Positions 6,848-12,646 of a DNA stretch of 38,891 nucleotides are shown here, piece after piece (the stretch's first letter is position 1; each line of letters starts with the position of its first letter). Both the position numbers and the translations under genes were made by a program. The notes under the pieces were generated by a model that worked only from the letters and a program-made list of their open reading frames with translations, made no database searches and had not been told where the DNA came from. This DNA is from an uncultured Eubacteriales bacterium (lineage in GTDB: Bacteria; Bacillota; Clostridia; TANB77; UBA1234). The DNA lies in contig CASDSU010000017.1 of assembly GCA_949283575.1 (NCBI GenBank), forward strand, positions 1 to 38,891, given 5' to 3'.

Positions 6848-7955
6848 ATGTTTGAACTTGAGGAAAAACTTAAAGAATTAAAAGAGTTCGAAAAAAAGTT
6901 AAAAGAATTGGGTGAATCTCTTTGACATTTCTAATAAAATTAAAAAATTATTAGAATTAGAAGAGCAAACAAAAGATGCTGATTTTTGGAACGACATGGA
7001 TAATTCGACAAAAGTTTTGCAAGAAATAAAAATGTTAAAAAATAAAGTAAATGAATTTAATTCGTTAGATTCGTTTATACAAGATACAGTAGTCTTAATA
7101 GAACTTGGAATAGAAGCAAATGATGAAAATGTTGTTAGTGAAGTAAGACAAAATATTAAAGAAATAGCAAAAGAATTAGAAAAATTAGAAATTTCAAACT
7201 TACTATCTGGCAAGCATGATTCTAGTAATGCAATTATAACAATACATCCAGGTGCTGGTGGAACAGAATCACAAGATTGGGCAGAAATGCTATATAGAAT
7301 GTACTCAATGTGGTGTGAAAAAAATGGATATAAGCTTGAAGAACTTGATTATTTAGACGGAGATGTTGCGGGAATAAAAAGTGTAACGTTTAGTGTATCA
7401 GGTGATAATGCATATGGATATTTAAAAGGTGAGAGTGGAGTTCATAGATTAGTAAGAATATCTCCATTTGATTCTGCAGGAAGAAGGCATACATCATTTG
7501 CATCAGTTGAAGTGATTCCAGAAGTTTCAGACGATTTAGATATTCAAATAGATCCTAATGATTTAAAAGTAGATACGTATCGTTCGAGTGGAGCTGGTGG
7601 ACAACATGTAAACAAAACAGAATCTGCAATAAGAATAACTCATATTCCAACAAATATAATTGTTTCGTGTCAAACACAACGCTCACAAATTCAAAATAGA
7701 GATAAAGCAATGAAAATGCTTATTTCAAAATTAATGGAATTAAAAGAACGCGAAAATAAGGAAAAAATAGAAGACTTAAAAGGTGTTCAAAGAGAGATTG
7801 CCTGGGGAAGTCAAATACGTTCATACGTTTTTTGCCCATATACAATGGTAAAAGACCACAGAACAAATTTTGAAACAGGAAATGTTGATGCGGTAATGAA
7901 TGGAGAGATAAGCGATTTTATGGATGCATATCTAAAAAATGCAATTGAAAAATAG
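6848..7955 (+). CDS. prfB: Peptide chain release factor 2, with programmed +1 frameshift
   Basis: Starts at ATG 6848 (AAAGGATG upstream). The first frame, MFELEEKLKELKEFEKKLKE..., ends at CTT TGA (TGA 6923-6925). Translation resumes in the +1 frame at GAC 6924 and runs to TAG at 7953-7955, giving about 368 residues. CTT-TGA-C is the canonical autoregulatory slip site: low RF2 lets the ribosome slip past UGA. The upstream stimulator is weak (TTGGGTGAA at 6909-6917). RF2 releases peptides at UGA and UAA. The SPF tripeptide that reads the stop codon is present (VRISPFDSAG), and the catalytic GGQ lies in SSGAGGQHVNKTES near residues 249-251. No secA or hpf lies directly upstream, unlike B. subtilis, although hpf is about 5 kb downstream. 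Confidence 0.96.
6920..6926 (+). promoter_or_regulatory. prfB: prfB +1 programmed frameshift site
   Basis: CTTTGAC: CTT is decoded, then T6923 is skipped so that GAC is read. The in-frame UGA is the RF2-specific codon, making a negative feedback loop. This explains why the two frames of prfB do not join directly. Confidence 0.93.
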
Positions 7956-8007: not shown

Positions 8008-8050
8008 ACAAAAAGAAAACGCATACAATCAGATTAATGGATTGCATGCG
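8008..8050 (-). terminator. Terminator hairpin of the ncRNA
   Basis: An 11-bp stem, CGCATGCAATC/GATTGTATGCG in transcript orientation with one G-U pair, is followed by TTTTCTTTTTG. Confidence 0.88.
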
Positions 8051-8250
8051 CCCCCTAGTTTTCTGAGCAGTACATTAACTTGCTCCTTCCACATTAAATT
8101 TTTATACTCCTAAACGCCATCCATACACATCAAGCCCCGAATCGCACCTCAACGGAATCTTCTCCTCGGCACCTAGAGCTTATAACCTCGATATCCGTGG
8201 GGCATCCCCCATCGTTACCGGGAACCAATCCATACTTCAGGTTAGAGTAT
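8010..8250 (-). ncRNA. Structured non-coding RNA gene, about 240 nt (possibly raiA-motif-like)
   Basis: A stand-alone transcription unit on the minus strand. The promoter is at 8257-8285. The interior is G+C-rich and unlike the surrounding AT-rich DNA, has no usable ORF, and ends in a strong hairpin plus U run (8008-8050). The 5' end (TATACTC...TAA) can pair with a 3' segment (TTTAGGAGTATA), closing a large domain. Inside it, GGGG-GATG-CCCC is a tight hairpin nested in a GTAACGAT/ATCGAGGTTA-type stem. It does not show the tRNA-like end of tmRNA, the SRP helix 8 motif, the RNase P core or a T-box. Its size, the clostridial context and the hpf (raiA) gene about 5 kb away make the raiA-motif RNA a candidate, with 6S RNA another. 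The family assignment is inference; the RNA gene itself is well supported. Confidence 0.82.
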
Positions 8251-8256
8251 AAAATT

Positions 8257-8285
8257 ATAATATCACAGTTTACATAAGATGTCAA
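8257..8285 (-). promoter_or_regulatory. Near-consensus sigma-A promoter of the ncRNA
   Basis: Read on the minus strand: TTGACA (8285-8280), a 17-base spacer, then TATTAT (8262-8257). The expected start is near 8250. This is the strongest promoter match in the window, which fits an abundant RNA. Confidence 0.85.
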
Positions 8286-8416
8286 GAAAATATTTTACTT
8301 TTTATATTATTTCTTAATTTTGTGTTTTACCAAATTGATGCAATATGATATTCTATTGTCTGGAAATTATTTGTGATTTTACAAATGAATGATTACATAA
8401 GTTGGGGGTAATTATT

Positions 8417-11400
8417 GTGGAAAATAACGAAATAATTTGGAATGAAGTTGTTGACTTTTTTTCAAAAAAATATGTAGCAATAAAAGCGGCATTAGGAGGT
8501 AGCACAATTGATATACAAGGTGATAATGTTAATGTAAATTTGAGTTCCAAAAGTAAATTTATGCTGGAACAACGTAACTCAGATAAACTTATAGAAGAAT
8601 ATATTAGAAATTCTTTTGGAAGAAATGTTCAGGTTGTTTTTAAAGAACCTGAAGTTATTGAAGATTCTCTGAGTAAAGAACAAGAAATTATAAGGAATCT
8701 ATTAGAAAAACAAAAAAGTGAACATGAAGAGAAACAAAAAAATCTTTCACAAAATACATCTGCTAAAACCACTACAAAAAGTGTTCCGAACTCTAACACA
8801 CAAATTAAAAATGAAAGTGGAAATATAAATGTTTCTAATACGTCTAATATTCCTATGAGTTCTGAAGAATATGCATCGAGTATGCCTCAAAAATCTAATT
8901 CAGAGTCAAAAGATACTTTTAGAAATAATAGAAAAAAAGGTATGGAATTTATTAAAGATCCAGAGATGCTTATATTTAAAGGTTGGAAAGTTCCATCAAA
9001 TCCAAAAGAAATCAAGATTGCAAATCTTTCGCCAGAACAAAATGAAATTATTTTAAGTGGCAAAGTTAGTAACTATGATAGCAGAGAAACTAAAAATGGT
9101 GGTTTTCTGATTTCTTTTGATATATATGATGGTTCGAGTTCGATAAACGTAAAAGCATTTTTAAAAGCAAATGAATATGAGGAAGTTCATCCTAAAATGA
9201 AAAAGATTCCAGCTGTTCGTTTGGTTGGAACTTATGAATATAATAGTTTCTCAAAAGAGTTTGGTGTTATTGCGAGCATGATAGAAGAAACTACTTTTGA
9301 AGAAAAGAAGAGAATGGATAATTCGGAGGAAAAGCGTGTTGAGCTTCATCTACATACACAAATGAGTCAAATGGATGCTGTTTCATCAGCTACTGATTTA
9401 ATAAAAACAGCGATTAAATGGGGGCACAAAGCTATTGCAATTACTGATCATGGTGTTGCTCAAAGTTATCCTGAAGCGAAAAAGGCTGCTAAGGATTCTG
9501 ATATAAAAGTTATTTATGGTGTTGAAGCCTATCTTGCGCCTGATAATGTTACTTCAGTATATGAAGCAAAAAGTACAGAATCTTTAGATGATTTAACTTA
9601 TTGTGTTTTGGATATTGAAACAACAGGTTTATCAAGACAAACAGAAAAAATTACTGAGTTTGGTATTATGAAAGTGAAAAATGGTGAGGTTATAGATACG
9701 TTCGAGTGTTTTGTAAATCCTGAAAAACCAATTCCACCAAAAGTTGTTGAGGTTACACATATCACAGATGATATGGTTAAAGATGCTGAAACAATCGATA
9801 AAGTAATGCCAAAAGTGATTGAGTTTGTTGGTGACAGTATTGTTGTTGCACATAATGCAAATTTTGATGTTGGCTTTATAAGACATAACGCTGAGCAATT
9901 AGGTCTTAAATTTGATAATACATTTATTGATACATTGGCACTTGCAAAAGAAATATATCCAGATTTTAAAAAGTATAAATTAGGATATATTGCCGAACAA
10001 TTAAATATAAAAGTTGATGTTGCACATAGAGCGCTTGCTGATGTTGAAACTTTGGTTGCCGTATTTAATGTTATGCTTGGTGTTCTTAGAGAAAAAGAAA
10101 TAACAACACTTAATGATATTGATGTGAAACTCGCCGAAGATGTTAATTTCAAAACACTTCCAACGTATCATGCTGTTATTCTTGCATCAAATAAAACAGG
10201 ATTAAAAAACTTATATAAATTAATCTCATATTCACATGTTGATTATTTTTACAAAAAACCAAGAATTTTAAAGAGTTTATTAATGAAACATTCTGAGGGA
10301 TTAATATTGGGAAGCGCTTGTGAGCAAGGTGAACTTTTTAGAGCAATTGTTGATGGTAAATCAGAAGAAGATTTAGAAGCAATTGCAGAATTTTATGATT
10401 ATTTAGAAATTCAACCAATTGGAAACAACATGTTTATGGTTAGAAATGGTACGGTTCCTAGTATTGATACATTAATAGAATTCAATAAAAAAATTGTTGC
10501 TCTTGGTGAAAAAATGAATAAACCTGTAGTTGCAACTTGTGATGTTCACTTTTTAAATCCAGAGGATGAAGTTTATAGAAGAATTCTTCAAGCTGGTCAA
10601 GGATATGATGATGCAGATGAACAAGCACCTCTTTATTTTAGAACAACTGAAGAAATGCTTAAAGAATTTCAATATTTAGGACAAGAAAAAGCATATGAAG
10701 TTGTTGTAACGAATACGAATAAAATAGCTGATATGTGTGACAAAATAAATCCAATAGCAGATTATAAAGCGACTCCACACATTGAGGGTTGTGAAGAAAC
10801 AATAAGAAATATAACAATGAAGCGTGCTATTGAATTATATGGAGATCCGCTTCCTGAAATTGTTCAAGCTCGTATAGATAAGGAACTTGATTCAATTATA
10901 AAAAATGGGTTCTCCGTTATGTATATTATCGCTCAAAAACTAGTTAACAAATCAAATGAAGATGGATACTTGGTTGGTTCAAGAGGATCTGTTGGTTCAT
11001 CATTTGTTGCAAATATGACTGGAATAACAGAGGTTAATTCGCTTCAACCACACTATAGATGTCCAAACTGTAAGTATTCAGATTTCACAGACTATAATAT
11101 AAAAAATGGATTTGATCTTCCAGATAAAGAATGTCCAAAGTGTGGAACTATGTTAGACAAAGATGGAATGGATATACCGTTCGAAACATTCCTTGGTTTC
11201 GATGGAGATAAAGAACCTGATATAGACCTTAATTTTTCTGGAGAATATCAAGCGAAGGCACATAAATATACCGAAGTTATATTCGGAAAAGGAACAACAT
11301 TCAAAGCAGGAACAATTGGTACAATTGCTGATAAAACAGCTTTTGGGTACGTAAAAAAATATTATGAGGAAAGACATATTCCTGTAAATGTTGCAGAAAC

Positions 11401-12646
11401 AACAAGATTATCAGTTGGGTGTACGGGTGTAAAACGAACGAGTGGACAACATCCGGGAGGAATTATTGTTGTTCCAAAGGGTAATGAAATATATGAATTC
11501 TGTCCAGTTCAACATCCTGCTGATGATGCAGAGTCAAATATCATAACAACACACTTTGACTATCACTCAATAGACCAAAACCTATTGAAACTAGATATTC
11601 TAGGTCATGATGATCCAACTATGATAAGAATGTTACAAGATTTAACTGACGTTGATCCACAAAAGATTCCGTTAGATGACAAAGATACAATGTCAATTTT
11701 CTCATCTACGAAGGCTTTAGGTGTTACACCAGAACAAATTCACTCGGAAGTAGGAACTTTTGGTGTACCTGAGTTTGGAACAAAATTTGTTCGTGGAATG
11801 TTGCTTGATACAAAGCCGACTAAGTTTGAAGAGTTGTTAAGAATTTCTGGTCTTTCTCATGGTACAGACGTGTGGCTAAATAATGCACAAACACTTATTC
11901 AAGAGGGGACCATTCAACTGGAAGATGCGATATGTACTAGAGATGACATAATGATATATTTAATAAAACAAGGTTTGCCACCAAAACCTTCATTCAAAAT
12001 AATGGAAAGCGTTCGTAAAGGAAAAGGATTAAGTGAAGAACAAGAAACAATGATGCGTGAAAATAATGTGCCAGAATGGTATATAAATTCATGTAAGAAA
12101 ATTAAATATATGTTTCCAAAAGCACATGCTGCGGCATATGTAACAATGGCGTTTAGAATAGCATGGTTTAAAGTGCATATTCCACTTGCATACTATGCAT
12201 CATATTTTTCAATTAGAGCAGATGCGTTTGAAAGTGATTCAATGATTTATGGAAAAGAAAAAGTTATTAATAAAATGCGTGAAATAGATTTGCAAGGAAA
12301 TGCTGCTACAGCAAAAGATAAAGATATGTATGGTACATTAGAAATTGTTTTAGAGATGTATGAAAGAGGATTTGAATTTTTACCGATAGATTTGTATAAA
12401 TCAGATGCTAAAAAATTCTTGATTGAAGATGGTAAGATAAGACCTCCACTAAACAGTATTGCGGGTCTTGGAACTGTTGCTGCTGAAAATATTCAGCAAG
12501 CAAGAAATACAGGTGGAACTTTCATGTCAATAGAGGAATTAAAATTAAGGGCTGGTGTAGGAAAATCAGTAATAGAAATGTTAAAAAATGCCAATTGTTT
12601 AAAAGGAATGACAGAAAGCAATCAGATGAGTTTGTTTACATATTAA
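8417..12646 (+). CDS. polC: DNA polymerase III alpha subunit, Gram-positive PolC type
   Basis: 1409 residues from GTG 8417, preceded by GGGGGT at 8404-8409. An in-frame TTG at 8402 lies before that ribosome site and is unlikely. Order of parts: an N-terminal domain; a charged linker (about 95-165); an OB fold (about 190-290); a PHP domain starting VELHLHTQMSQMD near 308, interrupted by a DnaQ-like 3'-5' exonuclease (CVLDIETTGL near 396; VAHNANFDVGF; HRALADVETL). Then come the polymerase palm with zinc-binding CPNC and CPKC near 881-908, the EPDIDLNFSGEY catalytic acidic motif near 932, and the FPKAHAAAYV fingers motif near 1232. It is the replicative polymerase of low-G+C Firmicutes, acting in the replisome with the beta clamp. 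In many Firmicutes it follows proS; here it follows the ncRNA. Confidence 0.97.
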   Translation: MENNEIIWNEVVDFFSKKYVAIKAALGGSTIDIQGDNVNVNLSSKSKFMLEQRNSDKLIEEYIRNSFGRNVQVVFKEPEVIEDSLSKEQEIIRNLLEKQKSEHEEKQKNLSQNTSAKTTTKSVPNSNTQIKNESGNINVSNTSNIPMSSEEYASSMPQKSNSESKDTFRNNRKKGMEFIKDPEMLIFKGWKVPSNPKEIKIANLSPEQNEIILSGKVSNYDSRETKNGGFLISFDIYDGSSSINVKAFLKANEYEEVHPKMKKIPAVRLVGTYEYNSFSKEFGVIASMIEETTFEEKKRMDNSEEKRVELHLHTQMSQMDAVSSATDLIKTAIKWGHKAIAITDHGVAQSYPEAKKAAKDSDIKVIYGVEAYLAPDNVTSVYEAKSTESLDDLTYCVLDIETTGLSRQTEKITEFGIMKVKNGEVIDTFECFVNPEKPIPPKVVEVTHITDDMVKDAETIDKVMPKVIEFVGDSIVVAHNANFDVGFIRHNAEQLGLKFDNTFIDTLALAKEIYPDFKKYKLGYIAEQLNIKVDVAHRALADVETLVAVFNVMLGVLREKEITTLNDIDVKLAEDVNFKTLPTYHAVILASNKTGLKNLYKLISYSHVDYFYKKPRILKSLLMKHSEGLILGSACEQGELFRAIVDGKSEEDLEAIAEFYDYLEIQPIGNNMFMVRNGTVPSIDTLIEFNKKIVALGEKMNKPVVATCDVHFLNPEDEVYRRILQAGQGYDDADEQAPLYFRTTEEMLKEFQYLGQEKAYEVVVTNTNKIADMCDKINPIADYKATPHIEGCEETIRNITMKRAIELYGDPLPEIVQARIDKELDSIIKNGFSVMYIIAQKLVNKSNEDGYLVGSRGSVGSSFVANMTGITEVNSLQPHYRCPNCKYSDFTDYNIKNGFDLPDKECPKCGTMLDKDGMDIPFETFLGFDGDKEPDIDLNFSGEYQAKAHKYTEVIFGKGTTFKAGTIGTIADKTAFGYVKKYYEERHIPVNVAETTRLSVGCTGVKRTSGQHPGGIIVVPKGNEIYEFCPVQHPADDAESNIITTHFDYHSIDQNLLKLDILGHDDPTMIRMLQDLTDVDPQKIPLDDKDTMSIFSSTKALGVTPEQIHSEVGTFGVPEFGTKFVRGMLLDTKPTKFEELLRISGLSHGTDVWLNNAQTLIQEGTIQLEDAICTRDDIMIYLIKQGLPPKPSFKIMESVRKGKGLSEEQETMMRENNVPEWYINSCKKIKYMFPKAHAAAYVTMAFRIAWFKVHIPLAYYASYFSIRADAFESDSMIYGKEKVINKMREIDLQGNAATAKDKDMYGTLEIVLEMYERGFEFLPIDLYKSDAKKFLIEDGKIRPPLNSIAGLGTVAAENIQQARNTGGTFMSIEELKLRAGVGKSVIEMLKNANCLKGMTESNQMSLFTY

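Follow-up and report, generated by a model that had tools for sequence, protein, structure and literature searches.

What is transcribed between the two genes that flank positions 8,008 to 8,285 of this contig (CASDSU010000017.1) from an uncultured Eubacteriales bacterium, and what could the product do? The initial annotation saw a structured RNA gene here and suggested a raiA-motif RNA, a 6S RNA or a new class. We compared the locus with known RNA families and with related genomes. The family and its anatomy rest on this comparison, and from them we infer a function. The window, i.e. the whole stretch of DNA that was analysed, is 38,891 nt long; coordinates of the features are given in Table 1.

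Table 1. Features of the RNA locus and its flanking genes (window coordinates)
Feature	Position	Strand	Description
prfB (release factor 2)	6912..7955	+	Convergent neighbour, outside the RNA; TIGR00020, 520 bits
Predicted transcript	8008..8250	-	~243 nt; from promoter geometry and terminator; 12 homologues
Intrinsic terminator	8014..8056	-	17-bp hairpin, then UUUUUGU
Mini-ORF	8055..8075	-	ATG TAC TGC TCA GAA AAC TAG (MYCSEN)
Shine-Dalgarno (SD)	8083..8088	-	AAGGAG; AAGGA in 12/12 homologues, start codon 5-7 nt further 3'
P1, 3' strand	8104..8109	-	GAGUAU; partner 8250-8245
P4a/P4b stem	8132..8181	-	8181-8176 with 8137-8132; 8172-8168 with 8148-8144
P5 hairpin	8154..8165	-	GGA-GAAGAU-UCC; sequence conserved most; paired cells 100%
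P3 hairpin	8189..8220	-	GUA..GAUGG-GANG-CCAC..UAY; conserved bulges, GANG loop
P1, 5' strand	8245..8250	-	AUACUC; partner 8109-8104
Promoter	8257..8285	-	-35 TTGACA 8285-8280, 17-nt spacer, -10 TATTAT 8262-8257, TG ahead of -10
polC	8402..12646	+	Divergent neighbour, outside the RNA; NF001688, 1824 bits

Promoter, transcript and known RNA families

The promoter had been described as near-perfect, and it agrees with the consensus at 11/12 positions; transcription is expected to start near 8250 (minus strand). The homologues described below carry the same promoter type at the same position, most of them with the spacer TTATGTnAA. When the window was scanned for promoters at 9/12, the number of sites was no higher than in shuffles. 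TTATGTnAA was considered as a regulator site specific to the RNA and was rejected, because the promoter type was found elsewhere in the same genome. The form TTATGTAAA-n5-TATAAT was observed upstream of other genes (L064-L071; contigs C13, C28 and C11 of G000), and some of these loci are apparently less AT-rich than the window.

The base composition departs from that of the AT-rich host, as the initial annotation had stated: G+C content was 0.456 in the transcript vs. 0.305 in the window, and 1.7% of the window's 237-nt stretches were equally G+C-rich. The closing stem between the 5' end and a 3' segment, the internal stems and the long terminator that it described were also found. The minimum free energy of 8252-8008 (minus strand) was -78 kcal/mol (z -2.9), and folding of the homologue L002 gave z -3.6.

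Covariance-model searches against raiA, 6S, SRP and all other Rfam models, the check proposed with that annotation, revealed no family at the locus at the gathering threshold and no credible match there at E<=10. Ten homologue loci, searched at E<=1, showed no raiA/ModT, 6S, SRP or tmRNA match. The raiA motif (RF03072) did not match the locus (E<=10) or any part of the genome, the genome search having been run without a positive control. 6S RNA (RF00013), tmRNA (RF00023) and SRP RNA (RF01854) were rejected as candidates: none matched the locus, and the genome has its 6S RNA at C29:1603-1798 (83.6 bits), its tmRNA at C28:52746-53099 and its SRP RNA at C28:63978-64107. Matches of miRNA type near L002 were discarded; they fall on an inserted inverted repeat. 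The raiA and 6S assignments were therefore abandoned. The gene hpf, which had been cited in favour of raiA, does start ~5 kb away in the window, but the recurrent neighbour of the homologues is prfB. A diverged member of one of these housekeeping families (raiA/ModT, 6S, SRP or tmRNA) would share the similar size, promoter and closing stem of the RNA; however, given the negative Rfam searches of the locus and its homologues and the presence of 6S, tmRNA and SRP RNA elsewhere in the genome, we regard this explanation as highly improbable. The locus represents a structured RNA family that is absent from Rfam.

Homologues and the folded domain

A DNA similarity search yielded a 93% copy in genome G005 and a diverged copy in G004, and the near-invariant GGAGAAGATTCCGTTGA, used as query, led to the homologue in G001. 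Covariance model R1, built from four sequences, detected G006 and G007 in a search of the class and G002, G003, G009, G010 and G011 in a search of the taxonomic family. A second model, R2, detected G012 with a weak score; this homologue was accepted on reading, with promoter, P1, P5, SD, ORF and terminator all in place. Of the 13 family genomes examined, 12 thus have a homologue, with one convincing copy each. The remaining genome, G008, is 84% complete, and every family genome that is >=90% complete with <=5% contamination has the RNA.

R2 was run on 287 genomes from the order and on 391 from the class, two overlapping samples, and revealed nothing convincing outside the family; the matches examined there scored <29 bits and fell within other sequence that was mostly coding. 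In a pattern scan across the genomes of 84,980 species, the model confirmed family members only, and the loci outside the family, including three viral ones, were attributed to chance. These large searches used Infernal's stricter filters, which very diverged relatives may escape. No match was found by BLAST against phages and plasmids. Two loci from short matches, L004 (G011:C107) and L006, were rejected on reading. The records that carry names are MAGs of Clostridia recovered from roe deer, sheep and rabbit, the last origin being taken from the isolate name 'Lapin'. The RNA was found only within a single taxonomic family of gut Clostridia with small genomes.

The relatives were examined for compensatory changes in the stems. 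Column-wise covariation was tested for the P3, P4b and P5 pairs on an alignment of 11 homologues, in which 92.5% of cells were paired and 10 pairs showed two-sided changes, in 29 cells. Shuffles gave 9.9+/-3.0 such cells (0/500 reached the observed number), and slid versions gave 1-8. Two-sided changes occurred at 7/11 aligned pairs of P3, whose cells were 98.3% paired; in P5, GGA/UCC is replaced by GGC/GCC in two genomes. P4b is misaligned there and by itself was only 62.5% paired.

P1, P2 and P4 were not alignable column by column, and their pairs were first listed by hand; 407/413 of these were standard, which is a fitted figure. Pairing was also tested without hand-picked pairs, by combining the 5' segment of each genome with the 3' segment from the same genome and, in turn, with the 3' segments from the others. 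Mean pairing energy of P1/P2 was -13.7 kcal/mol for own vs. -8.6 for exchanged segments, and that of P4 was -11.5 vs. -8.8 kcal/mol (0/20000 permutations in both cases). Of two control comparisons, one lay close to chance (5.8% of permutations); the other, which overlapped part of the P1/P2 partner, was also low (2/20000). P1 pairing was complete in 11/11 genomes checked despite differing sequence; two genomes, G003 and G006, have a poor P2. Possible pseudoknot pairing of P5 with the SD was inspected by eye; 4-5 bp can form in several genomes, but they show no consistent covariation, and the pseudoknot is not claimed.

The helices covary strongly among the homologous sequences, which indicates that the structured RNA family is real. 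The predicted domain is a junction closed by P1/P2, with the bulged hairpin P3 and a P4 arm capped by P5. The covarying homologues bear out the initial annotation of a structured RNA gene and, together with the lack of a credible Rfam match at E<=10, its suggestion of a new class.

The mini-ORF and the neighbouring genes

An SD followed by a 6-codon ORF at 8088-8055 (minus strand) had been overlooked in the initial annotation. The SD lies 12-18 nt 3' of P1 in every homologue. The start codon is AUG in 11 homologues and UUG in one, the ORF has 5 or 6 codons in 12/12, and the terminator stem has its first pair at -3 to +1 nt relative to the stop codon in 12/12; counted from the A of the start codon, the stem begins after ~15-20 nt. 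Part of the SD in the window may be masked by a weak local hairpin. When the stretch after the SD was shuffled, 0.6-12% of the trials recreated the arrangement, depending on the genome (mean 5.2%); the product of these rates over the 12 genomes is no probability, because the genomes, which represent four genera, are related.

The predicted peptides are MYCSEN, MYCSKN, MYFQLQ, MYLAAK, MEEILK, MEESSM (twice), MEATL, MEDSSM, MFYSK, MSYFA (UUG start) and MSYSIA. Most residues are unconserved even inside one genus (MYCSEN, MYFQLQ, MYLAAK, MEATL), and closely similar peptides occur in three genera (MEESSM in G006 and G009, MEDSSM in G003). The putative mini-ORF is conserved in length and position, and its sequence mostly is not.

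These features could be those of an mRNA for a formyl-peptide of 5-6 residues, a signal or precursor, whose production the 5' domain regulates or stabilises. The conservation of SD, start and stop in 12/12 homologues and the recurrence of MEESSM and MEDSSM across genera are consistent with such a gene, as is the precedent of mccA, whose heptapeptide is the product (PMC6495379). However, the drift of most residues within a single genus, together with the finding that no processing enzyme recurs at the adjoining genes, makes a peptide gene unlikely. An RNA that acts in trans through a bound protein or small molecule, in the manner of ModT and 6S, with a tiny ORF that is incidental or only protects the 3' end, seems to us rather unlikely: its folded domain, its promoter of housekeeping type and its position as a stand-alone gene are reminiscent of ModT and 6S, and the same promoter type is present at other sites in the genome, but ORF length, SD spacing and stop position would not be expected to be kept in 12/12 homologues if the ORF were incidental.

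The stop codons of the mini-ORFs were UAA in 7, UAG in 5 and UGA in none of the 12 homologues (window 8055-8057, L002, L008, L009, L012, L013, L037-L041 and L058). All are thus readable by RF1, though the adjacent gene in many homologues encodes RF2. The absence of UGA may be due to chance or to a requirement of the terminator stem.

The gene 3' of the terminator is convergent in 12/12 homologues, and none has a co-directional gene downstream. The convergent gene is prfB in eight (the C-termini were also read), clpX in G001, an HVO_2922-like gene in G010 and G011, and mtaB in G012. Because this neighbour varies, a tie to prfB is not essential. No processing enzyme gene was recurrent among the neighbours of the homologues, and no mccB-type enzyme was found in an operon with the RNA, the nearest neighbours being prfB, polC and others. 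We considered control in cis by a riboswitch or attenuator, in which a ribosome at the stop codon would open the terminator and read-through would control the next gene. The overlap of the stop codon with the terminator stem, known from some attenuators, and the position of the folded domain 5' of the SD are compatible with this mechanism. However, the usual riboswitch or attenuator role is disfavoured because the downstream gene is always convergent and of changing identity, and read-through would yield antisense RNA only. Control in cis is thus very unlikely, and the arrangement argues against a riboswitch or attenuator and for a stand-alone gene.

Other features of the surroundings were observed. 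The apparent start of prfB is an ATG at 6849, and the gene has a classic programmed frameshift site, CTTTGAC, near 6920-6926 (GGGTGAATCTCTTTGAC), so that RF2 autoregulation by +1 frameshift is apparently intact. In G005, a 149-bp MITE-like element (L002:1348-1496), whose 57-nt terminal inverted repeats are perfect, lies between prfB and the terminator of the RNA, directly downstream of the latter. Elsewhere in the window, a 770-aa ORF at 80-2392 has an N-terminal SpoVG domain (~90 aa) and ~680 residues without a Pfam match.

Proposed function and comparison with known systems

The reading that we tentatively favour is a structured RNA, specific to this lineage and acting in trans, whose mini-ORF would dock a ribosome and work in the way of the reiteratively translated mccA. 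The front edge of an initiating ribosome reaches ~+15 to +17 from the AUG. Because the terminator stem starts at +15 to +20, one ribosome would just fit between the SD and the terminator hairpin. Repeated translation in which the ribosome is not released is reported for ORFs of 2-8 codons, and the 7-codon mccA is translated reiteratively, for ~71 rounds in vitro (PMC6495379). Since ORFs of this size can be translated again and again without the ribosome leaving, the 3' part of the RNA would dock a ribosome and hold it while it cycles on the mini-ORF. The docked ribosome would stabilise the 3' end, and docking would place the folded domain on the ribosome, where it may act on translation as a sensor or modulator, and the peptide would for the most part be a by-product.

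Several observations weigh against ribosome docking. The recurrence of MEESSM/MEDSSM in three genera suggests that the peptide is not wholly free to vary and could matter; the weak hairpin may hide part of the SD in the window; P2 is poor in two genomes (G003 and G006); and the mccA terminator sits farther from its stop codon than the terminator here. It is possible, if doubtful, that the RNA represents a new class that recruits a ribosome persistently and that senses or modulates translation instead of serving as an mRNA. Should the docking proposal hold, the RNA would be a natural example of ribosome binding by futile mini-translation. The locus also adds a covarying RNA family, missing from Rfam and present as a single copy in nearly all genomes of its clade. 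We know of no described family that combines a folded RNA with a 5-6 codon ORF of conserved length set against the terminator and a drifting peptide.

The raiA motif, or ModT (RF03072), is likewise a stand-alone structured RNA of Clostridia, ~215-260 nt long, with a sigma-A promoter and a terminator (PMC11706538). ModT has eight stems, two pseudoknots and a broad distribution, whereas the RNA described here has P1-P5 and a mini-ORF, occurs in one taxonomic family and has no covariance-model match. Motifs with uORFs or leader peptides share the structured RNA, SD, short ORF and terminator (PMC8632094, PMC11109978), but are followed by a regulated main ORF; none follows this RNA.

The mccA gene of microcin C resembles it in the short transcript, strong SD, tiny ORF of fixed length and unconserved sequence, and terminator (PMC6495379). 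An ORF of 2-8 codons with an SD, conserved in length and variable in sequence, was found here also. However, mccA has seven codons and lies upstream of mccB in an operon, whereas the RNA here has no operon and its stop codon abuts the terminator stem. To our knowledge, no covarying 5' domain of this kind is known in mccA. Dual-function sRNAs such as VcdRP carry a regulatory RNA part and an ORF on one transcript, but their ORFs are longer (29 aa in VcdP) and their RNA part pairs with the transcripts that it targets (PMC8672173). Of the two components of a dual-function RNA, the comparison of homologues shows a covarying domain and a conserved ORF for the RNA described here, with functions that are putative for both.
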